Assembly: GCA_003139775.1 (NCBI GenBank)
Contig: PLGI01000169.1
Coordinates: forward strand, 1 to 36,881
DNA length: 36,881 nt
Source of the DNA: Syntrophaceae bacterium
Lineage (GTDB): Bacteria > Desulfobacterota > Syntrophia > Syntrophales > Smithellaceae
Direction: 5' to 3'
The notes beneath the pieces are model-generated. The model did not search any database and had not been told where the DNA came from. It worked only from the letters and a program-made list of their open reading frames with translations. A program made the translations under genes and the position numbers. Numbering within the stretch: position 1 is the first letter of the stretch; every line of letters starts with the position of its first letter. This document shows positions 2,136 to 31,575 of this stretch, in pieces.

Positions 2136-3323
2136 ATGAATAAGATAATCAAAGAAGCGAAAAACGAATTAATTGTAAAGGTTGAAGCTGATAACTCCGA
2201 ACATTGGATTATCCCACATGCAGCCGATACTGCCTATTTTACTCACGGTTACTTCAGATACATAGGTAAATTTCCGCCACAAATTGCATCAAAATTAATT
2301 GATGATTATTATCCAGGGAAAGGTAAAATTCTGGATCCAATGGTCGGTGGGGGGACTGTCTTAATAGAATCTATTCTTAGGGGGATTAAGTGTGAAGGAT
2401 GGGACATTAATCCTACCAGTATTCTAATTGCTAAATGTGTATCTCGACATGTTGAGTCCTCTTTATACCAAGAAGCAGGAGAAAAAATATTAAATGGGTT
2501 GAGTGTTATAAATAACGACAACAGTATTTTTAATTATCAAGGTAATAGCTGGATAAAAAAAGGATTGCACTTAAAATATTGCAATGAATATTTTGATGCA
2601 AAAACACAAGAAGAATTAGAATATGCTTTATATGTTGTCGATGAAGTTTCGAAGAAAGACAAAAGCGTGTCAGACCTGATTCTACTTACGATTTTATCAT
2701 GTCTAAGGCGAATTAGCTATGCTAACGTAAAAAAGATGAATATTGAACTAGATTTAGAAAAGAAAACAAAGACTTCATTGTCTAAAGAATTTTCACGTAA
2801 ATTTTCAAATATTTTAAAGATCAATAATGAGCTGCCTAGCAAATTTACAATGAACTTGGCTCAAATTTATGAAAATGATGCTATGTGTTGGCCTTCGATT
2901 GATAAGTTCAGCATGATTATTATACATCCACCATATTTAACTAATACCGCTTTTAGTGAATCCACCCAACTTCAATTAGCTATCTTGGGCATTAATCACA
3001 AAAATATATGGAAGAAAGAACTTCGATGTAGAGGAAGTTTTTTACATGAACCAAATGGGCTTAAAAAATACATAACCAATTGGGCAAGGATAATTAAGTC
3101 TGCAGCGCAGTCATTGACAAAAGGAGGCATACTTGCCACTGTTGTTGGAGATGGTCAAATCGAACATGTGCGCATACCGATCGGAATGATGACTGTAGAA
3201 TTGGGAGCTGATACGGGATTAAAACTCGTTAAAAAATCTTTTCATATCCTTAATAACCAAACAGGCCAAACACAAAATAAAAAAATGAAAGGTCAGCATG
3301 TTGTTATCTTTCAAAAACATTAA
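2136..3323 (+). CDS. DNA methyltransferase 1 of restriction-modification locus
   Basis: This 395-residue amino-methyltransferase of the TRM11-like/DNA methylase class has the SAM-binding motif I at residues 66-74 (LDPMVGGGT) and an acidic-loop motif GWDINP near 88-93. Catalytic motif IV appears as HPPY at 264-267, preceded by hydrophobic residues. The order motif I then IV fits N4-cytosine or N6-adenine methylases; His in place of the usual Asp/Ser/Asn of (D/N/S)PPY is a known variant in this class. An upstream FRYIGKFPP segment is shared with the next gene. It overlaps that gene by 26 bp and has TAGGA before the ATG. It is the first gene of a tandem pair that converges on two nuclease genes, so it probably protects one strand of an asymmetric recognition site. 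Confidence 0.8.
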   Translation: MNKIIKEAKNELIVKVEADNSEHWIIPHAADTAYFTHGYFRYIGKFPPQIASKLIDDYYPGKGKILDPMVGGGTVLIESILRGIKCEGWDINPTSILIAKCVSRHVESSLYQEAGEKILNGLSVINNDNSIFNYQGNSWIKKGLHLKYCNEYFDAKTQEELEYALYVVDEVSKKDKSVSDLILLTILSCLRRISYANVKKMNIELDLEKKTKTSLSKEFSRKFSNILKINNELPSKFTMNLAQIYENDAMCWPSIDKFSMIIIHPPYLTNTAFSESTQLQLAILGINHKNIWKKELRCRGSFLHEPNGLKKYITNWARIIKSAAQSLTKGGILATVVGDGQIEHVRIPIGMMTVELGADTGLKLVKKSFHILNNQTGQTQNKKMKGQHVVIFQKH

Positions 3324-4494
3324 ACCTTTACAATGGAATGACGTTGGCAGTAACGCCGCGCAAAATTATTTAACACACTCGGTTTTTAGGTATTTTGGTA
3401 AATTGCCACCAGTTTTAACTGCCAATATTTTAAAAGAGTTTCTTCCTTTAAATAAAAAGAAATCACCAATCGTGCTTGATCTCATGTGTGGAAGTGGAAC
3501 GACTCTTGTTGAAGCACAGAGAATTGGTGTTAGAAGCATAGGCGTTGACTCAAACAATCTTTCTTTACTTATATCCAAAGTTAAAACAACTCCGCTAAAT
3601 ATTGTTATGGCCGAAACGGCACTTAAAGAATTCGCGAAGAAATTTGTATCGTCAAATAAGAAAGCTGATACCAGCAAGATGGCAATTAAACAGCAGAAAT
3701 TTACTTTAGAAAAATATATTCCGCCTGTCAAGAATATCAATAAGTGGTTTTCTGAAGAATCACAGTATAACTTAGCCGCCTGTCGAGTTTGGTTAGAGAA
3801 ATATAAAAATAGTGAGGATCTATATAATTTATTATTCGTAAGCTGGCTGAGCATTATTAGACAATGCTCTAATGCATCTGTAAGAACTGGCCGTATATTT
3901 TATGATTCTGATAAGTCCCAACAACCAGTTTTCTCACATTTCCATAAAAAGTTAGAAAAAAATATCGAACTCTTTAGTAAAATACCTACTAAGCAATTCG
4001 ATTTACGGCCACAGTTGTTTGTGGGTGATTCAAGATGTGTAAAATTACCACTTAATGAAAAAGCTGATTTTACTTTTTTTCATCCACCATATTTTGCTTT
4101 ATATAAGTATAGCTCTGACGTTCTTCGTTTTGAGTTAGAATGGGGCGGTTTTAATCGCAAAGAGATTCTGAATAGAGAGATAACAGATGGTTTTAAGACA
4201 TCAAATCCTAATCTTGCAGACATCTATGTTGATGACTTAGTCAAAGTTATAGAAAATGGATTTTTACACACAAAAAAAGGGAGAGGGATCGGCATTGTTG
4301 TAGGCAATAGTACTCTTTCAGAGAAACAATTGCCTATTGTAAAAAATATATTAAATAGATGTAAAAGCCGAGGCATGCGATGTGAAACTATTATTGAACG
4401 ACCAATTAAACATTCTCAGGCAACCTATCACAAAAGTGCTAATCATAAAATAAAATCAACTTCTGATTATTTACTTTTATTTACAAAAGAATAA
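3298..4494 (+). CDS. DNA methyltransferase 2 of restriction-modification locus
   Basis: This 398-residue methyltransferase has the same layout as its upstream neighbour: FRYFGKLPP near residue 30, motif I LDLMCGSGTT at 60-69, GVDSN at the motif II position, and HPPYFALYKYSSD from 262. It is clearly related to the first enzyme but strongly diverged, so the pair is not a recent duplication. Tandem diverged methylases are typical of systems that recognise an asymmetric sequence, one enzyme per strand. The start overlaps the upstream gene, suggesting translational coupling. The 3' end overlaps the convergent small nuclease gene by 14 bp, so the whole locus is tightly packed. Confidence 0.8.
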   Translation: MLLSFKNIKPLQWNDVGSNAAQNYLTHSVFRYFGKLPPVLTANILKEFLPLNKKKSPIVLDLMCGSGTTLVEAQRIGVRSIGVDSNNLSLLISKVKTTPLNIVMAETALKEFAKKFVSSNKKADTSKMAIKQQKFTLEKYIPPVKNINKWFSEESQYNLAACRVWLEKYKNSEDLYNLLFVSWLSIIRQCSNASVRTGRIFYDSDKSQQPVFSHFHKKLEKNIELFSKIPTKQFDLRPQLFVGDSRCVKLPLNEKADFTFFHPPYFALYKYSSDVLRFELEWGGFNRKEILNREITDGFKTSNPNLADIYVDDLVKVIENGFLHTKKGRGIGIVVGNSTLSEKQLPIVKNILNRCKSRGMRCETIIERPIKHSQATYHKSANHKIKSTSDYLLLFTKE

Positions 4495-4972
4495 AATCTA
4501 ATGATATAGATTTTGATAAGTTCCCTTTCAACGTAACACTGTTTGCATCTTCTGCCTGAATATATAAAATGTCTTGCTCTAATTTAGAATCGACCTTAGT
4601 ACAGCCAATTGCCAGAACCAATTCACTGCAGCACTTTAAGAAACTATATGGTTGGGTCAATCTTTCTATAATAAAATTTTTTAATTTATCAAGCTGATAG
4701 TAATCCCTTATACTCCTAAGCTTTATTATATCTTCATTTGCTTCCTTTGCAGTTCCTTTCACTTCACAAAGATAAAGGTACTGTTTGGAACAAAAAATAA
4801 TATCGATATGTGCTCTCCGATTGCCTGTTTTATTCTGAGTCGGTGATGGTATTCGTATGAGATCGGTAAAATAACTTTTACCACTTGGAGGATGAGCACT
4901 AATTAGTTCTAGATTTTTGTTGAAACATATAAAGGCAGTTAAGGCATTGAAAGCTTCGTCTTCTAAACTCAT
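4481..4972 (-). CDS. small PD-(D/E)XK nuclease, candidate small restriction subunit
   Basis: This 163-residue protein carries a compact PD-(D/E)XK core: Asp57 in HIDIIF, then Glu70 and Lys72 in YLCEVKG, followed by a long helix-forming region. Its start overlaps the stop of the larger nuclease gene by four bases (ATGA type), so the two are probably translated together. A small nuclease of this length beside a larger one and two methyltransferases recalls heterodimeric type IIS/IIT enzymes such as BtsI and BsrDI, where each subunit cuts one strand. That parallel is architectural; no specific homology is claimed. An alternative is an accessory nicking enzyme such as a Vsr-like repair protein, but the Vsr motifs are not evident. 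Confidence 0.7.
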   Translation of the reverse strand: MSLEDEAFNALTAFICFNKNLELISAHPPSGKSYFTDLIRIPSPTQNKTGNRRAHIDIIFCSKQYLYLCEVKGTAKEANEDIIKLRSIRDYYQLDKLKNFIIERLTQPYSFLKCCSELVLAIGCTKVDSKLEQDILYIQAEDANSVTLKGNLSKSISLDFILL

Positions 4973-6273
4973 AGTATTTTTTGAAGTGGCTCTCCAATAA
5001 TAATCCCATCATTGCATACAATTATGTGGCAATATCTTAAAAATATTCGACCTTGTTTAGTGGAACCAATCCAAGTGCTGTACAATGCAGCAGAACTAGT
5101 TGTCGTTCTGTGTTTAGCAGCAAAATCTATTGAGTATCTTTCTTTAAAAAGCTCTATCAGGTTTTGAGTATTGTTGAGACTTTCTAGAAGGATTTGCGTT
5201 GCTGACGAGGTAATAGAAATTCGGGGGTAGAATAATACCAGAGGCAGTTTATTCACTTTACATTCACGATAGTAAATGTTAATTGCAACTCCGCAATGTG
5301 GGTCTGATCGCCATTTATATCCGGAGAAATAGACATATGCTCCTTCTTGAAAAATATCCGCCGAGCATATTTTCTTTATAAACGAAGATATCTCTGTTTC
5401 ATCTGATACAATTCTATCTTTCAGTAATATATTCTTTAACTGGCTGTTGCGCAGCGCATATAGTGCTAGAAGCTTATCTGGTTTGCCTTTAAAAAAATAA
5501 TCACTCATATATTGAAGAATTTGTTGGGGGTTTCTAATAAGTTCGATAGTCTTGGTTCGGTTCAATGCAAATTTGACATCCGAATGTCTAGTGTTTTTAA
5601 TATTTGCTAGATCAAGTAATTGTGCCTGACTTTTTACTAATAAAGCAGCTGAGTCCGCCGTACCATTTTTACCATTTCTTGCTAAATTAATAATTGCGGC
5701 CATTAGTGAACAAAGGTCTCCATAAACTCCCATGAACTTTGAATCTGTCGAAGTTAATGGCACCTTTTTAACTTTACCATTGCGTGCCGTGATCCATTCA
5801 GTAAATAACATAGGCACTTTATAAAGCGTGTGGAGAGTTGCCATGCCTTCAAAAAAATCGGATGTTAAACTTCTTTTTGAAAGCGTCGAAACGTCGTTGG
5901 AAAGATCAAGTTCATCATCACGAACTCTTGCTATGGGCCCAAAATATATAAACGGTACTTTATTTTCGGCAGCTGATGCAACACGAACAAACCTTTGGAG
6001 TCCATTATCACCCGTGTACGCATGTTCTGTCACTTCCACCACGAGTATGGGTTTCCCTGCTAGTGTAAAGATATAATCTGGCCGATCAAACGCAAAGAGT
6101 GGAAATATTTTGTCATAAGTTCTATTATTTACCGCTGCGGAAATTTGAGGATATTTAGCTATGTTTTCGTCCGGAATATTATTAAGAATCGAGGAAAGAC
6201 CTTTCAATCGTTTGAACAATTTAACATCCGCGTCTTCATCGCAAAAAACCTCTATCTGATTTAATAATCCCAT
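4969..6273 (-). CDS. large nuclease-like protein, candidate main restriction subunit
   Basis: This 434-residue protein has an N-terminal nuclease-like core: Asp66 in RPDYIF, then VVEVTEH with Glu80. A Thr sits at the residue usually occupied by the catalytic Lys of (D/E)XK, so the active site is variant or reduced. TGDNGLQRF follows and resembles a conserved turn in this class. The remaining 300 residues show no recognised domain and are the likely target-recognition region. It starts 18 bp after the controller gene and overlaps the small nuclease by 4 bp, giving an operon C-large-small. Regulation by the controller is expected. The specificity cannot be read from the sequence. Confidence 0.65.
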   Translation of the reverse strand: MGLLNQIEVFCDEDADVKLFKRLKGLSSILNNIPDENIAKYPQISAAVNNRTYDKIFPLFAFDRPDYIFTLAGKPILVVEVTEHAYTGDNGLQRFVRVASAAENKVPFIYFGPIARVRDDELDLSNDVSTLSKRSLTSDFFEGMATLHTLYKVPMLFTEWITARNGKVKKVPLTSTDSKFMGVYGDLCSLMAAIINLARNGKNGTADSAALLVKSQAQLLDLANIKNTRHSDVKFALNRTKTIELIRNPQQILQYMSDYFFKGKPDKLLALYALRNSQLKNILLKDRIVSDETEISSFIKKICSADIFQEGAYVYFSGYKWRSDPHCGVAINIYYRECKVNKLPLVLFYPRISITSSATQILLESLNNTQNLIELFKERYSIDFAAKHRTTTSSAALYSTWIGSTKQGRIFLRYCHIIVCNDGIIIGEPLQKIL

Positions 6274-6291
6274 AACGAAATAACGCTAACG

Positions 6292-6537
6292 TTATCCTTT
6301 CGATTTTGGCGATATATGACGAGTAAAAGATGGTGTGTCGAAAAGCTGCTTTAAAGAAATATCCAAAGCCTTTGCAAGTTTTTCTAGATTGATAATAGAT
6401 ATATTCCTTTTACCATTTTCAACAGAACATAAATATGTTCGATCTAAATCAGCTTTGAAGGCCAATGCTTCTTGGCTCAAACCTGCTTTAAGTCGTAATT
6501 CCTGTATTCTTTTTCCAACTTTATATTGAACTGACAC
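6292..6537 (-). CDS. restriction-modification controller (C) protein, XRE-type HTH
   Basis: This 81-residue protein is essentially one XRE/Cro-type helix-turn-helix domain (GLSQEALAFKADLDRTYLC, then VENGKRNISI). Its length and gene position are those of R-M controller proteins. The start is a GTG preceded by AAGGTGA at good spacing. It is the first gene of the minus-strand operon that continues into the two nuclease genes. About 49 bp upstream of the start lies GACTATAAGTC, which matches the known C-box half-site, so autoregulation with delayed nuclease expression is likely. Confidence 0.82.
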   Translation of the reverse strand: MSVQYKVGKRIQELRLKAGLSQEALAFKADLDRTYLCSVENGKRNISIINLEKLAKALDISLKQLFDTPSFTRHISPKSKG

Positions 6538-6585
6538 AATTCACCTTATTATTTTTGTTAACAGGTAGTTGTATTTACGTCAACG

Positions 6586-6596
6586 GACTATAAGTC
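6586..6596 (-). promoter_or_regulatory. C-box-like operator of the controller protein
   Basis: GACTATAAGTC is a GACT-ATA-AGTC palindrome. Read on the minus strand with flanks it gives TGTGACTTATAGTCCG, very close to the C-box half-site consensus from C-protein-controlled R-M systems. A weaker second half (TTGACGTAAATAC) follows toward the gene at about 6571-6583. The element lies between the controller gene and the divergent glycosylase gene and is placed to control the C-R-R operon. The assignment rests on recalled consensus, not on an alignment. Confidence 0.68.
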
Positions 6597-6767
6597 ACAT
6601 CAATACAATTTGTGTGTAGTGAATTAATAGGGGATGATACTACTTAATCGGAAACATTGATCATAATCTATCTGAATTATACTTATTATTGAATTGACAT
6701 TTATTACTCTTCTCTCTATTCTCATCTTATAAGATAAAAAAGGGGTGTTGATCATAAGCAGGTTCAG

Positions 6768-7397
6768 ATGACATCAAATAAATCTATCCTGAAAACTTTA
6801 GCAAATGTCGATCCAGTTATGTTCAGATTGATTGAACATATAGGGCCCATTAACTTAGAACCAAGACAACTACCACCATTTCAATCCATCACACATGCAA
6901 TTATTCATCAACAGCTAAATGGTAAGGTAGCACGTGTCATCTTTGATCGATTTGTAGCGCTTTTTGGTAATGGCAAATTTCCCGCACCTGAAGAAGTCAT
7001 AAATATAGATTTCGAAATTATGCGGGGTGTAGGATTATCTAAGTCAAAAGCAACATACATAAAAGAAGTTGCTAAAATGGTGTCAACGGGAATAGTTCCT
7101 TCTCTAAAGGAATATTATAAACTTAGTGACACAGAAATAAAAGATCGACTTACAAAAATAAAGGGAGTCGGTCCCTGGACTGTTGAGATGTTACTGATTT
7201 TTAATTTTGGTCGCTTGGATGTTTTACCTATTCATGATCTCGGTGTTAGAAAGGGATTTCAATTAGCTTATAAAAAGCGTAAATTACCAACGCCGGAGCA
7301 ATTAGAACGTTTTGGAAGGAAATGGAAACCTTATAGAACAATAGCTACTTTATATTTATGGGGAGCAGCAGATTTTATAAATCTTAATGAATGGTAA
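6768..7397 (+). CDS. AlkA-type DNA-3-methyladenine glycosylase
   Basis: This 209-residue HhH-GPD family base-excision enzyme removes alkylated bases from DNA. It shows an N-terminal helix with ITHAIIHQQL, the helix-hairpin-helix KIKGVGPWTVEM at 130-141, and the catalytic Asp157 in PIHDLGVRKG. The C-terminus (FGRKWKPYRTIATLYLW) is typical of the AlkA/Mag branch. At about 209 residues it lacks the extra N-terminal domain of E. coli AlkA, as in many bacterial homologues. The ribosome binding site is poor. The stop overlaps the first in-frame ATG of the following nuclease gene, so the two are probably cotranscribed. It sits among defence genes, but a housekeeping repair role is equally possible. 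Confidence 0.88.
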   Translation: MTSNKSILKTLANVDPVMFRLIEHIGPINLEPRQLPPFQSITHAIIHQQLNGKVARVIFDRFVALFGNGKFPAPEEVINIDFEIMRGVGLSKSKATYIKEVAKMVSTGIVPSLKEYYKLSDTEIKDRLTKIKGVGPWTVEMLLIFNFGRLDVLPIHDLGVRKGFQLAYKKRKLPTPEQLERFGRKWKPYRTIATLYLWGAADFINLNEW

Positions 7398-7411
7398 TTT
7401 TGAGAAATAAG

Positions 7412-7963
7412 ATGAAGAAAAATTATTTTTTAATAGTTGCATTTTTATTTCTGCTATCAGGTTTCCCTTTTTCTTCTCAAGCCACTATTCGCACAGTCAC
7501 TGGAACAGTCACGAAAGTTTCCGATGGAGATACAATTCATTTGACAACACCAGAGCAAACTAAACTCCGCGTTAGGCTGTATGGCATAGATGCGCCGGAA
7601 ACGGCTAAAATCAATAATCGAACAGGTCGAGTCAATAAACCGGGACAACCTTATGGAGATGAAGCTTGGAAGGCTCTTGAAAGTAAGATTATGGGAAAGC
7701 AGGTAAAGTTGGACATTCTTGATATTGACAAATACAGGCGCATGGTGGGAATAATTTGGCTAGAAGAACGCAATATAAATCTGGAGATGGTCAGCGAAGG
7801 ATATGCAGAAGCATATGTCGAATATCTCAAAGCACCTTACCGATCAAAATTTATTGATGCAGAGAGGAAAGCGAGATCAGAAAAAAAAGGAATTTGGTCT
7901 TTGCCAGAATATGAGAGACCAAGAGATTTCCGCAAGAGATTAAAGGTTCGCGGCGGAGAATAA
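7412..7963 (+). CDS. secreted SNase-family (thermonuclease-like) nuclease
   Basis: This 183-residue protein has a signal peptide (MKKNYFLIVAFLFLLSG, cleavage after about SSQA) and one staphylococcal-nuclease domain. VSDGDTIHL is the first signature, and RLYGIDAPE supplies the Arg55, Asp60 and Glu63 equivalents of the SNase active site; DKYRRMVG supplies the second Arg (about 110). KKGIW near the C-terminus is also typical. The start at 7412 is chosen because it gives a clean signal peptide; an in-frame ATG at 7391 overlaps the glycosylase stop. The enzyme should degrade DNA or RNA outside the cytoplasm using calcium. Co-location with the glycosylase may only reflect island packing. Confidence 0.85.
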   Translation: MKKNYFLIVAFLFLLSGFPFSSQATIRTVTGTVTKVSDGDTIHLTTPEQTKLRVRLYGIDAPETAKINNRTGRVNKPGQPYGDEAWKALESKIMGKQVKLDILDIDKYRRMVGIIWLEERNINLEMVSEGYAEAYVEYLKAPYRSKFIDAERKARSEKKGIWSLPEYERPRDFRKRLKVRGGE

Positions 7964-7991
7964 TTGGATTAAATAAAGGAAGATAATATAT

Positions 7992-8063
7992 ATGGCAGAG
8001 AAACTTGACCCGAAAGAGATTGTAGATTTTAAAGAATTGTTGATGTCTGAAATTATTGTATGA
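7992..8063 (+). CDS. 23-residue peptide, truncated leader of the AIPR gene
   Basis: A short frame (MAEKLDPKEIVDFKELLMS then EIIV) has a good AAAGGAAG ribosome site and ends in TGA overlapping an in-frame ATG (8060) of the following AIPR frame. The sequence reads like the beginning of a family of small 50-70 residue proteins that normally continue further, so it is probably a truncated copy or a coupling leader. No function is recognised. Confidence 0.4.
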   Translation: MAEKLDPKEIVDFKELLMSEIIV

Positions 8064-8083
8064 TTGAAAAAGGGGAAAAGAAT

Positions 8084-9820
8084 ATGGATAGAATTATTAA
8101 AAGTTTAGTTGAGGACCTATTAAAGACTCAAGAAATGACGGCTGAAAATGAAGATAAGGATTTTGAAAGGTTTGTAAATTATTGCATTATATCAAGGGAA
8201 TATAATAGAAGTTTTGATTTGGAGGATACATTAACAGGCTCTGGTGACGATACTGGAATTGACGGTATTGGAATTATTGTAAATGGACAGTTGATGGAAA
8301 ATACGGAGGATATAGACTTTTTTATTAATAATAATAAGTTTCTGGAAGTTACATTTGTATTTACACAAGCTAAAACTTCTTCGGATTTTTCGAGCAGTGA
8401 GATAAATAATTTTGCATTTGGTGTAAAAGATTTTTTTGCCGAAAAGCATAAATTGAGGAGAAACAAAACAATTCAGGGTTTTATTGATATATCAAATCAT
8501 ATCTTCGATAATGCACAATACTTAAAGGTTAATCCAACATGTAAATTATTCTATGTTACAAATGGAGTCTATAGGTCTGATCAAAACAACGAGGCGGTAA
8601 GAAAAACTACAATAACAGATCTGGATCAAACTAAATTATTTTCAGAGGTAAATTTTGATATTTATGGGTCCAGTGAAATTACGAAGATATATCGCGATTC
8701 GAAAAACACTGTGACTACAACTATAATCTTCCAAGCAAAGGTGACTCTTCCTGAGATACCTTTGATAAAAGAATCTTATCTAGGAATAATTCCGTTATCT
8801 GAGTTAAGCAAACTGATACTTGATGAGAACGGAAATGTTAGAAATATCTTTTACGATAATATTCGAGATTTTGAAGGTTTCAATAATCCCGTTAACAAGG
8901 GAATTATGGAAACGCTCAAGGGGAAGGCACCTGAAATCTTTGCCGTTCTAAATAATGGAATAACGGTCGTTGCAAGTAAATTGCGGCCGTCTGCGAATAA
9001 ATTTACAATTACGGATTACCAAATAGTTAATGGATGCCAGACATGCTACGTCCTTGCCGATTATTTGAAGAAAAATATGGAAAGCGACATATCGTTACCA
9101 ATAAAACTTATAATAACAGAAAATGATGAGATTGCTAATAGAATAACCGTTGCAACTAATAGTCAAACAGCTATAAAACGCGAGCAATTACAAGCGATGA
9201 CAGAGTTTCAAAAGAATTTAGAATTATATTATTCTTCCTTTAAAGGAGATAACCAATTATTTTACGAGCGACGCTCTGGTCAATATCAAAGTGATAGTAA
9301 CGTTATAAAGGCGAGAATAATAAATATTCAAAATCAAATTAAAGCTTTCTCTTCAATATTTTATGAAAATCCTGATAGGGTAACGACTTATTTTGGAAGT
9401 GTAGTTAAGCAAAATGTTGAAATTGAGGACCCAAAGATATTTAACACCAATCATCAGTATCAATTATATTATTTATCCGGCTTAGCATATTACAGATTGG
9501 ATTCACTCTTTCGGTCTAGGAGTATAGGACCAAGATATCGAAAAATAAGATTTTTCTTATTAATGCTTTTCAGAATGATACTATCTCCAAAAACTTTGGA
9601 GATGCAATATATGAATAGCAAGAAAAAAGTAAGTCAGTATTGTGACCCGATCATAAAAGTACTAAATGATAAAAAGAAAACTTTAAAGGTCTTTGAGAAA
9701 GCAGTAGAAATAGTTAACCTTTCGAAGGTGGATATTGATGATAAACAATCAATTAAACAGACTGTCTTTACCAATGATTTAAAGAAAGCTTACTACAAAA
9801 TATATAAAGCAAAAGAATGA
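8084..9820 (+). CDS. AIPR-family abortive infection phage resistance protein
   Basis: This 578-residue protein belongs to the AIPR (abortive infection phage resistance) family. The N-terminal region looks like a PD-(D/E)XK nuclease: Asp60 in TGIDGIGI and the Gln-Ala-Lys of FVFTQAKTS at about 91-99. The AIPR core follows with YDNIRDFEGFNNPVN, FAVLNNGITVVASKL, YQIVNGCQTCYVLAD and ITVATNSQTAI, all hallmark segments. The start at 8084 is chosen because AGGGGAAAAG lies directly upstream; an earlier ATG at 8060 overlaps the small upstream frame. Members are thought to act on nucleic acid and stop growth of infected cells. It stands without an obvious partner apart from the short upstream peptide and the convergent XRE regulator. 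Confidence 0.87.
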   Translation: MDRIIKSLVEDLLKTQEMTAENEDKDFERFVNYCIISREYNRSFDLEDTLTGSGDDTGIDGIGIIVNGQLMENTEDIDFFINNNKFLEVTFVFTQAKTSSDFSSSEINNFAFGVKDFFAEKHKLRRNKTIQGFIDISNHIFDNAQYLKVNPTCKLFYVTNGVYRSDQNNEAVRKTTITDLDQTKLFSEVNFDIYGSSEITKIYRDSKNTVTTTIIFQAKVTLPEIPLIKESYLGIIPLSELSKLILDENGNVRNIFYDNIRDFEGFNNPVNKGIMETLKGKAPEIFAVLNNGITVVASKLRPSANKFTITDYQIVNGCQTCYVLADYLKKNMESDISLPIKLIITENDEIANRITVATNSQTAIKREQLQAMTEFQKNLELYYSSFKGDNQLFYERRSGQYQSDSNVIKARIINIQNQIKAFSSIFYENPDRVTTYFGSVVKQNVEIEDPKIFNTNHQYQLYYLSGLAYYRLDSLFRSRSIGPRYRKIRFFLLMLFRMILSPKTLEMQYMNSKKKVSQYCDPIIKVLNDKKKTLKVFEKAVEIVNLSKVDIDDKQSIKQTVFTNDLKKAYYKIYKAKE

Positions 9821-25060: not shown

Positions 25061-25141
25061 CAAGAATTGTTCTTTTTTTACGGTAAATAAGTAAAAAAAG
25101 ATTTTACTTTTTTCAGATACAACTACGGCGATATGTTTAAA

Positions 25142-25363
25142 TCAGCCGCCAGCCTCATCGCCGACAATGTCTCTCCCGACTCGGATCTTAAAATTGTAAA
25201 TCAACTGGCCCGGCTCTATCAAGACAATGCCTGCGACTCCATTATTGCCGGTGCCGGCCCGGCCAGTGATGAAGATATTTTTGTCCGTCTCATCCATCAG
25301 AGAAAGGGCGCTTTGAAATTCAGGATTGAACTCTATTTCGACCACTTTGGATTTTCTTGTCAT
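25142..25363 (-). pseudogene. N-terminal fragment of a Pif1-like helicase/AAA ATPase
   Basis: The 73-residue frame starts FNPEFQSALSLMDETDKNIF then ITGRAGTG, the opening and Walker A loop of Pif1/RecD-like helicases. The Lys-Ser of the P-loop is replaced (GTGNNG), and the sequence ends within 35 residues, where an intact gene would continue for several hundred codons. It is best read as a relic truncated at or near the cassette array border. Confidence 0.5.
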
Positions 25364-25545
25364 TGTGTTTCCCGCTATTTAATGTGTCCGACAGTAAACA
25401 CTTTTTACGTAAGACTTCAATAATAATTCTTTGATTTTAAATAAATATTCGTGTAGAAATATACCATTCAAAGAACAGCTTTTGTTTCAAACCGGTATAT
25501 AAAGGAATACGTATATTAATTGTTGTGCATTGGAGGAAAGAAGAT

Positions 25546-25839
25546 ATGGAAAATCGACGCTACAATGTAATAATGAGGCGTTTCCGCGTGTTCGCATGCC
25601 TGTTGATTTTTGCCAGCATCTTGTCAGCTTGTGCGACGCAGCCTCCGCCGCAATCATTCGATCCACCGGGCTTCTGGTCTGGATTGTTTCACGGCTTCAC
25701 GATCCTTTTTAGTTTGATCGGAAGCATTTTCACTGATCACCGAATTTACGCATTCCCAAATTCCGGTGGTTGGTATGACTTTGGGTTTTTCCTTGGCGCG
25801 TGCATGTTTCTAGGTGGCGGCGGAGCAGGAGCAAGATAG
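25546..25839 (+). CDS. small lipoprotein, first gene of the cassette array
   Basis: This 97-residue protein has a lipobox LSAC (about Cys29), a short Pro-rich mature N-terminus (ATQPPPQSFDPPGFWSG) and two weakly hydrophobic, Gly-rich stretches ending GGGGAGAR. The start at 25546 is chosen because GGAGGAAAGAAG lies just upstream. An attC-like site follows the stop by 8 bp, the arrangement of an integron cassette. The function is unknown. Confidence 0.7.
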   Translation: MENRRYNVIMRRFRVFACLLIFASILSACATQPPPQSFDPPGFWSGLFHGFTILFSLIGSIFTDHRIYAFPNSGGWYDFGFFLGACMFLGGGGAGAR

Positions 25840-25847
25840 AATTAAAA

Positions 25848-25903
25848 GCACAACAAAGTCAATCCAGCCGATCGCTACGCTCTGGCTGATTTTTACGTTG
25901 GGC
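25848..25903 (+). repeat. attC-like integron recombination site A
   Basis: The 56-bp element begins GCACAAC and ends GTTGGGC, the complementary simple-site boxes. Inside, AATCCAGCCGA pairs with TCTGGCTGATT, leaving the unpaired bases typical of attC hairpins. Element B downstream has the same length and nearly the same inner wording. Confidence 0.75.
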
Positions 25904-25927
25904 ATCAAAACATAGGAGGAAACGCAT

Positions 25928-26425
25928 ATGGCTTTGCGATCACTTCTGTTTGCCTTTTTTGCTATCACTTTATTAATAATTTCAGTTGAAGCAGCTCCTT
26001 TTCAACCAAACGATAGCTCGCCTGAAGGCATTGTATTGAAAGTGTATAAAGATTTTGCTTGGGAAGCTGTAATGGCAGCAGAACACTATGATGGGTTGAT
26101 GCAGCAACCGCAGATTGTTCTTGTAAAATACTTTGATGAAAAACTGACTTCTTTGATATTGAAAGATCGAGCATGTGCCAAAAAAGAAGGGATGTGCAAT
26201 CTTGATTTCTTGCCGATTTGGGATTCGCAAGACCCAAGTGCTGGCGACTTAACCGTAGAAAAAACAAACAAACCGAATATCATAGCTGTAACATTTCGTT
26301 ACCCTAGCATAGACAAAAAAATAGAATTGAAATATCAAGTAACTAAAACAACAAAAGGGTGGCGCATAAGCAATATTTCGGGGAAGGATTGGTCCCTACT
26401 TTTAATCCTTTCATCACCACAATGA
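25928..26425 (+). CDS. exported DUF3828-like protein, cassette gene
   Basis: This 165-residue protein has a signal peptide (MALRSLLFAFFAITLLI, cleavage near VEA), and a mature domain with SPEGIVLKVYKDFAWEAVM, CNLDFLPIWDSQD and a C-terminal WRISNISGKDWSLL. This looks like DUF3828-type periplasmic proteins. AGGAGGAAACGC precedes the ATG. It lies between attC-like sites A and B, making it the clearest single cassette in the array. The role is unknown. Confidence 0.72.
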   Translation: MALRSLLFAFFAITLLIISVEAAPFQPNDSSPEGIVLKVYKDFAWEAVMAAEHYDGLMQQPQIVLVKYFDEKLTSLILKDRACAKKEGMCNLDFLPIWDSQDPSAGDLTVEKTNKPNIIAVTFRYPSIDKKIELKYQVTKTTKGWRISNISGKDWSLLLILSSPQ

Positions 26426-26426
26426 G

Positions 26427-26482
26427 GCCCAACAAGGGTAATCCAGCCGACCGCTACACTCCGACTGATTTTTTCGTTATGT
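26427..26482 (+). repeat. attC-like integron recombination site B
   Basis: The 56-bp element begins GCCCAAC one base after the upstream stop codon and ends GTTATGT. Its inner AATCCAGCCGACCGCTACAC and CGACTGATTTTTTCG closely follow site A, supporting a common family. Confidence 0.75.
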
Positions 26483-26540
26483 AGATTGATGCAGAAATCA
26501 AGAAAATATAAAAAATAACTCCTGTAAAGGAAAACATGTC

Positions 26541-27176
26541 ATGTTCGCTATAAATCACGCAGCCACTGGTCTGATTATCAAAAAGATTTATCCCGATGTA
26601 CCGATAACAACGATTTTAGTATCGGTCCAACTAATAGAGATCCTCTGGGTTATATTAAATTATCTCGGAGTAGAAAGGACAACCACCGAAAAAAAAGTAC
26701 AATCAGTGAGTGATGTACATCTTGAGTATATGCCGTTTTCTCACTCACTAGCATCCACGGCTGTTTTGGCGGCTGGCGCATGGATACTCTTTACCTTTGG
26801 CTTCAAAGAGGTTAATGTAGGAATAGCCGTTGCGCTGGGTATATGTTCTCACCTTGTGCTTGACCTGATTAGTCATGCTCGTGATATTGTCATAGCGCCA
26901 TTTCTGGACAGCAGGAAGTTCGGCTTGGGGCTCTATGAGAAGCCGGTTGTTGCATTCGTGTTCGAGACAATCTATGGGATTTTCTGCTGGTGGGTGTATG
27001 GAGGAAGTACGGCGTTGTTTTGTATAATTGTAGTATTTAATCTGGCTAATGCCTCTTTCTTCATTAAAGCTATACCCGGACCAGAAAGATTTTTGGCACA
27101 TAGGCCATTCTGGATTACAACCATAGTTGCATTGCAAATTATCGTGACTGCGGTACTTGTGGGGTTGTTCAGCTGA
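26541..27176 (+). CDS. membrane-bound metal-dependent hydrolase (YdjM-like)
   Basis: This 211-residue integral membrane protein has about five hydrophobic segments and conserved His-bearing motifs typical of YdjM-type hydrolases: NHAATG near the N-terminus, MPFSHSLASTA in the middle and CSHLVLDLISHARD further on. AAAGGAAAAC precedes the ATG. It lies between attC-like sites B and C and is probably an integron cassette gene. The substrate is unknown. Confidence 0.72.
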   Translation: MFAINHAATGLIIKKIYPDVPITTILVSVQLIEILWVILNYLGVERTTTEKKVQSVSDVHLEYMPFSHSLASTAVLAAGAWILFTFGFKEVNVGIAVALGICSHLVLDLISHARDIVIAPFLDSRKFGLGLYEKPVVAFVFETIYGIFCWWVYGGSTALFCIIVVFNLANASFFIKAIPGPERFLAHRPFWITTIVALQIIVTAVLVGLFS

Positions 27177-27282
27177 GGCAATGGCACTGACAGCAATGCC
27201 CATGAGTGATGCTCGATATAAAAGCTTAAAGATGGATGGAATAATTCAATTCAGATGGGTCAAGAGGACGGCATAGCTACCG

Positions 27283-27345
27283 CATGCACAATGGATTGGC
27301 TCCAGCTTCGCTTTCGCCAGCCGTTGATGCGGCACATTATGCACA
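27283..27345 (+). repeat. attC-like site C (divergent)
   Basis: TGCACAATG and CATTATGCA form matching ends about 59 bp apart, enclosing GGCTCCAGC and GCCAGCC arms around TTCGCTTTC. The overall fold resembles an attC hairpin, but the GTT core is changed to ATT, so it is either divergent or damaged. It lies about 107 bp after the upstream stop. Confidence 0.5.
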
Positions 27346-27373
27346 ATATGATTTCAAGGAGGGGTGAATCGAC

Positions 27374-27829
27374 ATGATTTTAGACATACTGGAGAATGCA
27401 CAACGTTATCTGGCCTTGCATAAGGGGTTTGCAAAGGCATTTGATTTTCTGTTGCGCCCTGATCTTAAGGAACTGCCAGTGGGGAAATATGAGATAGACG
27501 GTGAGAGCGTCTATGCGATGGTGTCTAAGGACTCCGGCCGCAGGAAAGAAGATGCGCTACTTGAAACGCATGAAAAATACATTGATATACAATTGGTCCT
27601 GACAGGAACCGACGATATGGGATGGAAACCCAAGTTATTGTGTAAACATCCATTCGGGGAATACGATAAAAAAACTGATGAGCAGATTTTTACGGACGAA
27701 CCGGATGCCTGGCTATCAACTAAAAGTGGAGCGTTTGCGATTTTCTTCCCGGAAGATGCGCACATGCCGCTGATCTCGTCAGGCCAGCTCCACAAAGTTA
27801 TTGTAAAGGTCGCCGTTGCCGAAAGATAA
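27374..27829 (+). CDS. YhcH/YjgK/YiaL family protein
   Basis: This 151-residue cupin-like protein belongs to the YhcH/YiaL (EbgC-like) family: RRKEDALLETHEKYIDIQLV carries the conserved His-Glu-Asp set, then GTDDMGWKPK, FAIFFPEDAHMPLI and HKVIVKVAV. Members are tied to sugar or sialic acid metabolism. GGAGGGGTGAATC precedes the ATG. It is the last plus-strand gene of the array, followed by a truncated attC-like start. Confidence 0.85.
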   Translation: MILDILENAQRYLALHKGFAKAFDFLLRPDLKELPVGKYEIDGESVYAMVSKDSGRRKEDALLETHEKYIDIQLVLTGTDDMGWKPKLLCKHPFGEYDKKTDEQIFTDEPDAWLSTKSGAFAIFFPEDAHMPLISSGQLHKVIVKVAVAER

Positions 27830-27831
27830 CA

Positions 27832-27850
27832 AGGCCAACAAAGTTAGCCG
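27832..27850 (+). repeat. truncated attC-like end
   Basis: GGCCAACAAAGTTAGCCGA matches the left end of sites A and B, but no closing box follows before the ubiE stop at 27868. It probably marks the right edge of the cassette array, cut by deletion. Confidence 0.45.
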
Positions 27851-27867
27851 AATAAAGCGAAACTGTA

Positions 27868-28617
27868 TTAAGATTTTTTTCCGATATACAGACAGGTAAT
27901 ACCGAAAGTTAGGGGATATATTTTTACTTCGGACATTCCGGTATCCTGCATGATTTTGGCGAATGCATCCGGCGATGGAAAGTTCATGATTGAATCGGCA
28001 AGATAGTAATATGCCGCGGCGTTTTTGGAAAACACTCTGGCCATCAGGGGAAGCAGATAGTTCAAATAAATATAATAAAACAGTTTGAAAAAACGGTTCT
28101 CAATAAAAGCCATTTCCAGAATCATTATCTGTCCTCCCGGCACAGTGACACGCAGCATTTCCCGGAGCGCTTCCGTTCTATCGGGAATATTTCTAATCCC
28201 GAAAGCCATTCCTGTAACGTCAAAAGCATTGTCGTGAAATGGAAGTCTCAAGGCATTGCCTTGCATGAAATTTAACTGACTAGAGAGGCCTTTTTTCTCT
28301 ACCTTGTCCTTTCCCGCCAGTGCCATGGGAAAAACAAAATCAACGCCGAAGGCTTTTATCTGGCGGTGCTTCAGGCAGGCGTTAATCGATAAATCTCCGG
28401 TGCCGCAGGCAACATCAAGAAATATATTGGTTCGGAAAAAACGCATCTTTTTAATTGCAAACCGGCGCCAGGCAATATCGCGGCGCAAGCTCAGCAGGTG
28501 GTTTAAAAAATCATACTTGCCGGTAATGGTCGAAAAGATTTCTTTTACCATGCCGATGCGCTGTGCATCGCTGATGGTTTTTACCGAAGGATATTTGTTG
28601 ACTGTTGATTTTTGCAT
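27868..28617 (-). CDS. ubiE: demethylmenaquinone/ubiquinone methyltransferase
   Basis: This roughly 249-residue SAM methyltransferase of the UbiE/MenG family performs the C-methylation step of menaquinone (or ubiquinone) synthesis. It shows IFSTITGKYDFLNHLLSL and RRDIAWRRFA near the start, DVACGTGDLS (motif I), GMAFGIRNIPDRTEALREM and VPGGQIMILEM. The ATG at 28617 has AAAGGAAATC upstream; a TTG at 28665 overlapping the previous stop is an alternative. An anaerobe would use it for menaquinone. Confidence 0.9.
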   Translation of the reverse strand: MQKSTVNKYPSVKTISDAQRIGMVKEIFSTITGKYDFLNHLLSLRRDIAWRRFAIKKMRFFRTNIFLDVACGTGDLSINACLKHRQIKAFGVDFVFPMALAGKDKVEKKGLSSQLNFMQGNALRLPFHDNAFDVTGMAFGIRNIPDRTEALREMLRVTVPGGQIMILEMAFIENRFFKLFYYIYLNYLLPLMARVFSKNAAAYYYLADSIMNFPSPDAFAKIMQDTGMSEVKIYPLTFGITCLYIGKKS

Positions 28618-28661
28618 TGATGAGATTTCCTTTACTGATGCGGACGCTGGATAATTAACGG

Positions 28662-29003
28662 TCAAACAATATCTCTAATCAGCCCCTTTTCCTGAAATAT
28701 TTTCATGACAGCGGTTGAGTTCTCGACGGTAAATCCAATACGCCACCATTTGTTGCGGATGAACGCAAAGAAAATTTTGTCGCGTTTGTATCTTTGAAAA
28801 TCCTTGGGAAACCAGGTATGGAAATCGCCTGTCCCGTGAAAGCGGAATTTACCATTCCAGATGGAAGCCGGTTTAACAATGATTTTTTTAATATCGGAGA
28901 AAAGCACTAATCTATCGCGCTCGAAAAGACTGTAGCGCTTGAACAAAATACTATCGCCGGTAATGGCGACCAATGAATCAGTGTAAATTATTTCAGTGAC
29001 CAA
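28662..29003 (-). CDS. small soluble protein of unknown function
   Basis: This 113-residue protein is mainly beta-strand in appearance (SDIKKIIVKPASIWNGKFRF, WWRIGFTVEN) with one C-terminal helix, suggestive of a bacterial PH-like domain. It lies between hisD and ubiE on the same strand. I do not recognise a named family. Confidence 0.6.
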   Translation of the reverse strand: MVTEIIYTDSLVAITGDSILFKRYSLFERDRLVLFSDIKKIIVKPASIWNGKFRFHGTGDFHTWFPKDFQRYKRDKIFFAFIRNKWWRIGFTVENSTAVMKIFQEKGLIRDIV

Positions 29004-29036
29004 TTGATTTCACTCTACCATAAATACAAAAACACA

Positions 29037-30323
29037 TTATTTGCTGCGGATAAGAACCGAATTAGCATGAGCATCGAGACCTTCCATCTGGGCAAAACGA
29101 ACTGTTTGGCTGCCAAGCTTTTTTAAAGCTTCCCGCGAAAAAGAAATAACGTTCATTCGTTTGTAGAAATCATAAACGCCCAATGGAGAAGAAAAACGCG
29201 CCGTGCCTTCTGTCGGCAGAATATGATTCGATCCGGCCAGATAATCGCCCAATGCTTCCGGCGTAAAAGAGCCCAGAAAAACAGACCCGGCATTTCTTAC
29301 TTTATCAAGAATTCCCGCGGGATTCTCTACCATCAGCTCCAAATGTTCAGGCGCGAAGAGATTGGCAAGCTCCAGCGCTTCATCCACGCTGGCGGTAATA
29401 ATAACCGCGCCGTATTTGGCGAGAGATTGTTCCATTATTGTTTTTCGCGATAAAGTTCTCAATTGCTGATCAATTTCCTGTGACACCTGGCGGGCTATAC
29501 TTTCAGACGGCGTTAAAAGAATAGATGCCGCCATTTCATCGTGTTCGGCTTGCGCCAGCATATCAGCCGCCACAAAACAAACATTTGCCGTGTTATCGGC
29601 AATAACAACGATCTCGCTGGGGCCCGCAATCATATCTATATCCACCTGGCCGAAAACTAGTTTCTTCGCCGCGGCAACGTAAGCATTTCCCGGTCCCACT
29701 ATCTTATCGACCTGCGGAATCGTTTTTGTGCCGTAAGCCAGCGCCGCTATTGCCTGCGCACCGCCAACCTTGAATATGCGCCACACTCCGCTTACCTCGG
29801 CCGCCGCGGCAATCAGCGGATTTAATTTGCCGTCTCTGGCCGGGCTGACTAAAATAATTTCTTCTACCCCGGCAATTCGCGCCGGAATCGCCGCCATAAG
29901 CAATGTCGAAGGATAAAAAGCTTTTCCTCCGGGAGCATAAATGCCTACTCGCCGCAGGGGCAAAACACGCTGGCCAAGTTCTATACCTTCCTCAGCCGTA
30001 GCAGACCATCCCTCGACAATCTGGTTGAGATGATATTTTTCGATACGCCGGGCTGCTGATTTAATAATTTCCAAATCTTCCGGCCGGACTAAAGATAGCG
30101 CGTCCTTTCTTTCCGCTGGTGTTACCTCTACTGTCGCCGCGGTTAATTCATAACGGTCGAATTTTGCCGTATATTGAAACAGGGCTTCATCGCCTCTGGC
30201 GGCAACATCGCGCACAATTTCCGTAACGTCTGATAAAAGCTTCGGGGAATAGGCTCCGCCTCTTTGACGCAATTCGCGAAAAAAATCTTTAAACTCGGCA
30301 GCGTCGGCTTTAATTATTTTCAT
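29037..30323 (-). CDS. hisD: histidinol dehydrogenase
   Basis: This 428-residue NAD-dependent zinc enzyme performs the last two oxidation steps of histidine synthesis. It is full length for the family and shows VPGGKAFYPS-type text (APGGKAFYPSTLLMAAIPA), VGGAQAIAALAYGT, GPGNAYVAAAKKLVFG and DMIAGPSEIVVIAD, plus LAQAEHDEMA and the zinc-ligand stretch GSNHILPTEGTAR. It starts 1 bp after the murA stop, so the genes are cotranscribed. This separation of hisD from the other his genes is common in deltaproteobacteria. Confidence 0.97.
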   Translation of the reverse strand: MKIIKADAAEFKDFFRELRQRGGAYSPKLLSDVTEIVRDVAARGDEALFQYTAKFDRYELTAATVEVTPAERKDALSLVRPEDLEIIKSAARRIEKYHLNQIVEGWSATAEEGIELGQRVLPLRRVGIYAPGGKAFYPSTLLMAAIPARIAGVEEIILVSPARDGKLNPLIAAAAEVSGVWRIFKVGGAQAIAALAYGTKTIPQVDKIVGPGNAYVAAAKKLVFGQVDIDMIAGPSEIVVIADNTANVCFVAADMLAQAEHDEMAASILLTPSESIARQVSQEIDQQLRTLSRKTIMEQSLAKYGAVIITASVDEALELANLFAPEHLELMVENPAGILDKVRNAGSVFLGSFTPEALGDYLAGSNHILPTEGTARFSSPLGVYDFYKRMNVISFSREALKKLGSQTVRFAQMEGLDAHANSVLIRSK

Positions 30324-30324
30324 A

Positions 30325-31575
30325 TTACTGTGTCATCCTTTTTATATCCGCGCCCAGTGCGGAAAATTTCTTCTCTATTGCCTGATAACCGCGATCAATA
30401 TGATAAACGCGGGAAATTTCCGTCGTTCCTTCAGCTGCCAGCGCCGCTAAAATCAGGGAAGCCGAAGCCCGCAAATCCGTAGCCATCGTTTGCGCGCCAT
30501 GCAGCATCGGCACTCCCCGAACAATCGCATTGCCGCCCTGGATGACAATGTCAGCTCCCATCCGCAGCAATTCACTGACATGCATAAAACGGTTTTCAAA
30601 AACAGTTTCGGAAATCACGCTCAAGCCGCTACCGATGGACATATAAGCCATCATCTGCGCCTGCAAATCGGTAGGGAATCCCGGATAAGGAAGAGTTTTA
30701 ACATCAACGCTGTTAATCTTTTCTCCGGAAGATACTTTCAGGCCGCCTTTAATCGGCGAAATCTTCATGCCCGTATCCCGCAGTTTGTTGATCAGTGCTT
30801 CCAGATGGTGGGGATTGCAGCCGATTACATTTATCTCGCCGCGCGTCATACCAGCGGCAATCATAAAAGTTCCCGCTTCGATTCGGTCGGGAATAATTTC
30901 AGCTTCCGTGGGCTTCAGCGAAGTAACTCCTTCGATTATTATTGTATCTGTGCCTGCTCCGCTGATCTTCGCTCCCATACCTTTTAAAACATTCGCCAGA
31001 TTGACAACTTCCGGTTCACGCGCCGCGTTGTTGAGAACAGTAGTGCCTTCCGCCAGCGTTGCCGCCATCATGACGTTTTCCGTTCCGGTTACAGTCTGGA
31101 TATCAAAATAAATATCCGCGCCTTTTAATTTTTTGGCCTTCGCTTCAATATAGCCGTTGTTTAATTCAACGTGCGCCCCCATCTCTTGCAAGGCTTTGAT
31201 GTGCAGATTAACCGGCCTTGCGCCGATAGCGCAGCCGCCGGGAAGAGAAACGCGCGCGACGCCCATACGGGCAACCAGCGGTCCCAACACCAACACCGAT
31301 GCGCGCATGGTCTTGACCAAATCATAGGGCGCGTCACAACTGGTAATCTTTTCAGCGCTTACCTTGCAAGTTTCATTTCCATCAATTTGCACACCCATAC
31401 TTTTTAAGAGCTTTTTAATCGTTTTGATATCCATAAGATCGGGAATATTATGGAAAGTATTTTCGCCTTCGGTAAGAAGTGTCGAAGCCAATATAGGCAG
31501 CGCGGCATTTTTTGCCCCGCTGATCTGAACATCTCCGAATAAAGGTTTTCCGCCTTGAATAACTATTTTATCCAC
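30325..31575 (-). CDS. murA: UDP-N-acetylglucosamine 1-carboxyvinyltransferase
   Basis: This 416-residue enzyme catalyses the first committed step of peptidoglycan synthesis, adding enolpyruvate to UDP-GlcNAc. It shows [19 protein letters not shown] at the start, catalytic Cys115 in [11 protein letters not shown], and [11 protein letters not shown] and [10 protein letters not shown] later. The start is GTG with AAGGAG upstream; it overlaps the prmC stop by 8 bp. Cys115 suggests the enzyme should be fosfomycin sensitive. Confidence 0.97.

Follow-up and report, generated by a model that had tools for sequence, protein, structure and literature searches.

We analyzed a 36,881-nucleotide stretch of a Syntrophaceae bacterium (assembly GCA_003139775.1, contig PLGI01000169.1; hereafter, the window) and found that positions 25367–27836 probably constitute an integrase-less integron of a Smithella species, comprising an attI site, three gene cassettes, and an old terminal cassette encoding a YhcH family protein. 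Judging from the sequence, this reading is founded on an attI site, two attC sites, exact borders for cassettes 1 and 2, conserved flanks, and the absence of an integron integrase gene (intI) from the assembly. A preliminary description of the window had proposed a cluster of attC sites lacking an integrase (CALIN) among core genes. By definition this is correct, since two attC sites lack a neighboring integrase; however, the array is not a stray cluster, as it keeps an attI, adjoins ubiE at the integron locus ancestral to the genus, and counts among about nine attI-bearing loci in the genome. The genome of this organism (G000) is a 3.4-Mb draft of 206 contigs, of which the window is contig C18, and the named genomes closest to it are metagenome-assembled genomes of Smithella and Syntrophaceae. 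All genome-wide statements below rest on searches of the genomes’ contigs.

The gene layout agrees with the preliminary description: four plus-strand genes (25546–27829) lie between minus-strand flanks, and two 52-nt repeats, starting at 25848 and 26427, separate the first three. These repeats had been called near-identical, and their identity is 83%. Prior to any modeling, a blastn search of the genome with the first of them, site A (25848–25903, plus strand), recovered roughly ten additional copies, located on other contigs and 81–90% identical to it; this is the wider family of related attC sites that had been suggested as a check. The full copies contain the R''-L''-L'-R' boxes with a base bulging from L'', and several matches are only partial. 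Sites A and B (26427–26482, plus strand) are genuine attC sites. A covariance model built from nine genome copies, A and B included, scored them at 79.8 and 67.9 bits, respectively, with the next best hit in the window at 14.7 bits, so the failure of attC models that could have overturned the proposal did not occur. The bottom strand of site A folds well (z -2.2), and site B is slightly decayed: two stem pairs are lost (its L' box has GACTG for GGCTG), and with z about 0 the preferred fold differs from the attC hairpin. Scanning the genus with nhmmer revealed the same attC family in 17 of 17 Smithella genomes, often as arrays.

An integron cassette is expected to open with bases (TTRRRY) that complement the R'' box of the attC site it carries. 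Cassette 1 (25523–25897, plus strand), which runs exactly from attI to site A, starts with GTTGTGC, the exact reverse complement of the site A R'' box GCACAAC. Similarly, cassette 2 (25898–26476, plus strand), spanning A to B, starts with GTTGGGC, the exact reverse complement of the site B R'' box GCCCAAC. Across the genus, a full match was found in 10 of 22 cassettes, compared with at most 6 in 5000 shuffles. The array combines what characterizes an integron array, namely attC boxes (A and B), G^TT borders with R'' complementarity, and an attI at its start. It is hardly conceivable that the repeats are instead an unrelated dispersed palindromic repeat. The sites are indeed short, palindromic, and dispersed, and such repeats exist here (site D, below), but the complementarity is specific to each cassette, the order of attI and attC is strand-biased, and arrays of these sites adjoin intI in the related genome G015.

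The attI site, overlooked in the first reading, lies in a region at 25367–25528 on the plus strand, with the core GTATATTAATTG^TTGTGC and a crossover point at 25522|25523. Four species (G000, G014, G003, and G008) are conserved from the helicase start to GTATATTAATTG^T and diverge immediately thereafter, and each carries a different first cassette beyond the crossover. The same core lies about 485 bp (range 476–521 bp) upstream of type-1 integrase matches in seven genomes (G015, G002, G001, G040, G043, G047, and G057), and with one mismatch upstream of such matches in G007 and G012, which identifies it as the attI of these integrases. An alternative is that a chance secondary genomic site of the attG type, rather than attI, took up the cassettes, since integrases can use non-attI sites (PMC12901181 and PMC12444791). 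We regard this as very improbable: attG insertion denotes a target other than attI or attC, whereas here the core equals the integrase-adjoining core and the sequence upstream of it is conserved among species. Scanning the attI region for promoters yielded matches at chance level only, and therefore no promoter is claimed.

An integron integrase match was found in 31 of 51 genomes of the family. None was detected in G000, G003, G008, G010, G011, or G014 using a curated model and a genus-specific alignment; the only matches left were Xer-like proteins that do not have the integron-specific insert and, in G003, one fragment containing a stop. For G000, profile searches found no intI at the locus or anywhere else in the assembly, as the preliminary description had held for the locus, and the integrase gene that adjoins attI in a complete integron is missing. 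Two further observations concern recombinases: three tyrosine recombinase genes stand in tandem on one short contig of this genome (C140, L006–L008), and a second type of integrase is followed on its own strand by attC sites, opposite to the arrangement usually seen (L101 in G013:C289 and L102 in G009:C36).

Comparison with relatives indicates what the locus once contained. In G015, the order is helicase (minus), intI (minus), attI, array (plus), YhcH (plus), ubiE (minus), hisD, and murA. G009 has the same order with intI reduced to its last 78 residues, and in G000, G014, G003, and G008 there is no intI between helicase and ubiE. From this gene order, together with the missing intI, the window locus is the chromosomal integron locus ancestral to the genus (helicase, intI, attI, array, ubiE), minus its integrase. 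The helicase gene survives in the window as an N-terminal stub (25245–25366, minus strand, as its translation confirms) that is 80–88% identical in nucleotides to G014, G003, G008, G009, and G015, where this gene also flanks the integron; a plus-strand open reading frame (ORF, 25133–25423) is antisense to it. A second copy of the helicase-attI stretch lies on contig C9 of G000 (L295), 90% identical to 25245–25522, and that contig ends 283 bp past the attI core. A tree of murA, hisD, and ubiE places G000, G014, G010, and G003 in one group, and G008, G009, and G004 are its sisters. We set aside a single shared loss of intI, as it clashes with the placement of G009.

The attI module is not confined to this locus. 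The attI core ATATTAATTGTTRNRY was found 10 times in G000, with 12 copies in G014 and 6 in G010, and its reversed control is absent from all 51 genomes. One of the G000 copies, on contig C4, lies where a coding sequence ends; it is a chance match and was not counted, leaving about nine attI-bearing loci. Within attI subtypes, including the one that adjoins an intact intI, approximately 90–128 bp of upstream sequence are held in common. For 49 distinct sites, the fetched loci extend at least 900 bp downstream. An attC follows within 1.5 kb on the same strand at 18 of them and on the opposite strand at none; as some loci were fetched for their attC, the strand bias is the safer figure. On contig C54 of G000, an ORF lies between two attI sites. 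In another genus of the family, G045 has 10 attI cores and G022 has 4, both without a match to the integron-integrase model.

The cassettes at these sites differ between sister species. At two orthologous attI sites of G000 and G014 (C11/C95 and C54/C76), the sequence is conserved up to G^TT and followed by different cassettes. Moreover, a 642-bp cassette (93% identity) is found at the attI on C11 in G000 and, in G014, on C193 within the ubiE array; the 5' border is the same. Two other orthologous pairs showed no clean cassette exchange, namely C75/C177, with a degenerate site, and C116/C126, with a different attI subtype. At the latter (L300 in G000, L206 in G014), the attI subtype at one and the same chromosomal position differs between the two sister species.

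These observations allow us to weigh whether the array is a dead remnant, in which each species lost intI separately, a resident integrase had inserted the first cassettes earlier, and nothing moves now. We consider this rather unlikely, although decay is evident in site B, site C is doubtful, intI remnants persist in G009 and G003, and the general interpretation of CALINs is that they are degraded integrons (PMC9024848). The four intI-less species have the same helicase-attI stretch with no gap at any deletion point, which separate losses would not produce, and the orthologous dispersed attI sites differ in their cassettes as well. It is likewise unlikely that the organism has its own enzyme at another locus, serving the integron yet missing from the draft. 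The assembly is indeed fragmented into 206 contigs, C9 breaks off shortly after its attI, and several attC sites lie near contig ends; however, the window locus is continuous without intI, and an intact copy is likewise absent from G003 (100% complete, in 30 contigs) and G008 (98%, in 10 contigs).

Rather than one docking platform, the system looks like several, given that about nine loci of G000 carry the attI module. The sequences suggest cassette turnover at several attI platforms by a trans-acting integrase. Recombination between attI and attC is the established route of cassette insertion in integrons generally, and here cassettes would have been inserted in this way at G^TT, with the integrase supplied by a mobile element, by another strain, or by an intI that was later lost or that the assembly lacks. 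Since the sites were found and an integrase was not, we infer its supply in trans at roughly an even chance. Tentatively, and with a little less than even confidence, we propose a distributed integron, in which many attI docking sites on one chromosome, with no resident integrase, undergo ongoing cassette exchange in trans. The different cassettes at orthologous attI sites are only an indirect sign that cassettes are excised and inserted by IntI.

Several points weigh against the overall reading of the locus as an integrase-less integron served in trans. No integrase that could act in trans was identified, and because all of them are drafts, intI may be missing from the assemblies. No recognized attC lies within 1.5 kb of 31 of the 49 attI-core sites. 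The loss of intI was not one clean event, given that G009, with its intI remnant, groups with G008. Finally, homology to relatives is lost left of 25245, through either a rearrangement or an assembly join.

In G000, the docking site is intact and recurs at about nine loci, and sister species, neither with a detectable intI, have different cassettes at a given site. If the proposal is true, cassette traffic outlasts the loss of the integrase gene, and surveys for intI or attC clusters alone would overlook the attI sites that mark the platforms. The array also yields a short attI signature, which could be tested across the whole family.

The gene families assigned in the preliminary description fared unevenly. 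Cassette 1 encodes a small predicted lipoprotein (ATG at 25546, stop at 25839). The secreted protein of cassette 2 (25928–26425) had been labeled DUF3828-like, which Pfam does not support (best match MlaC, E 0.05), and its family is not assigned. Cassette 3 (26477–27336, plus strand) encodes a YdjM-like membrane protein (26541–27176) that falls just below the Pfam cut-off (E 2e-6; 28.0 versus 29 bits), and YhcH is certain (Pfam E 5e-45). Cassettes 2 and 3 have no homologue among the 50 other family genomes searched; the four genes are therefore not a conserved block, the finding that would have spoken against an array. The cassette proteins had zero matches to a defense library, and an Rfam scan of the region returned chance matches only.

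The right part of the array is less well defined. The right border of cassette 3 is tentatively placed at site C (27286–27342, plus strand), the divergent third site of the preliminary description. Its status is doubtful, being either a decayed or a different attC: the covariance model misses it, while its R boxes pair in the fold (z -0.9) but read AAT/ATT in place of AAC/GTT. The YhcH/YjgK/YiaL cassette follows (27337–27836, plus strand; gene 27374–27829). It is the terminal cassette beside ubiE in G008, G009, and G015. Viewing YhcH as an ordinary non-cassette neighbor was rejected, as it sits inside the attC array, mid-array, in G003:C20. Site D (27826–27862, no strand), previously taken for a truncated attC end, instead matches both ends of a dispersed repeat of approximately 100–125 bp. 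It was dropped as a half attC, since the full repeat adjoins ubiE in G010, and we regard it as a repeat remnant to which no more than an R'' stub from the YhcH cassette is attached. This repeat also occurs as inverted pairs, with several copies in the genus (L091, 11150–12300; L298). Beyond it, ubiE, a small ORF, hisD, and murA (27868–31575, minus strand) form a conserved flank ordered as in relatives. Elsewhere in the window, 2136–9820 is a likely defense island, with two type II-like DNA methyltransferases (2136–4494), adjoining minus-strand ORFs, and a strong AbiU match (8060–9820, E 1e-121).

Among known systems, the CALIN of IntegronFinder is defined by at least two attC sites and no neighboring integrase (PMC9024848); unlike it, the Smithella array keeps an attI, a feature outside that definition. 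As in the delta-attI-type cassettes of class 1 and 2 integrons (PMC12901181), attI sequence is found outside its usual place, but in Smithella it is chromosome-wide, in modules of approximately 90–128 bp, and the cassettes bear attC. Cassettes at many chromosomal loci also recall attG insertion (PMC12444791); attG sites are, however, chance matches, whereas the Smithella sites have upstream sequence in common with integrase-linked attI. The same source describes CALINs as mobilizable in trans and, in Xanthomonas, an ancestral integron at ilvD with intI retained in most species, along with CALINs. The likeness includes a conserved-gene neighbor, frequent intI loss, arrays that are kept, and CALINs at several conserved loci. 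In contrast, most Xanthomonas species keep intI, while here about nine attI sites occur in an intI-less genome, and the passages of PMC12444791 consulted report no copied attI sites at the Xanthomonas CALINs. The open-access papers we searched yielded nothing on Smithella integrons or on orphan or multiple attI sites. On this comparison, Xanthomonas is the nearest precedent, and multiple intact attI platforms, together with orthologous attI sites that carry different cassettes in sister species lacking intI, appear to go beyond the cases described in the open-access literature.
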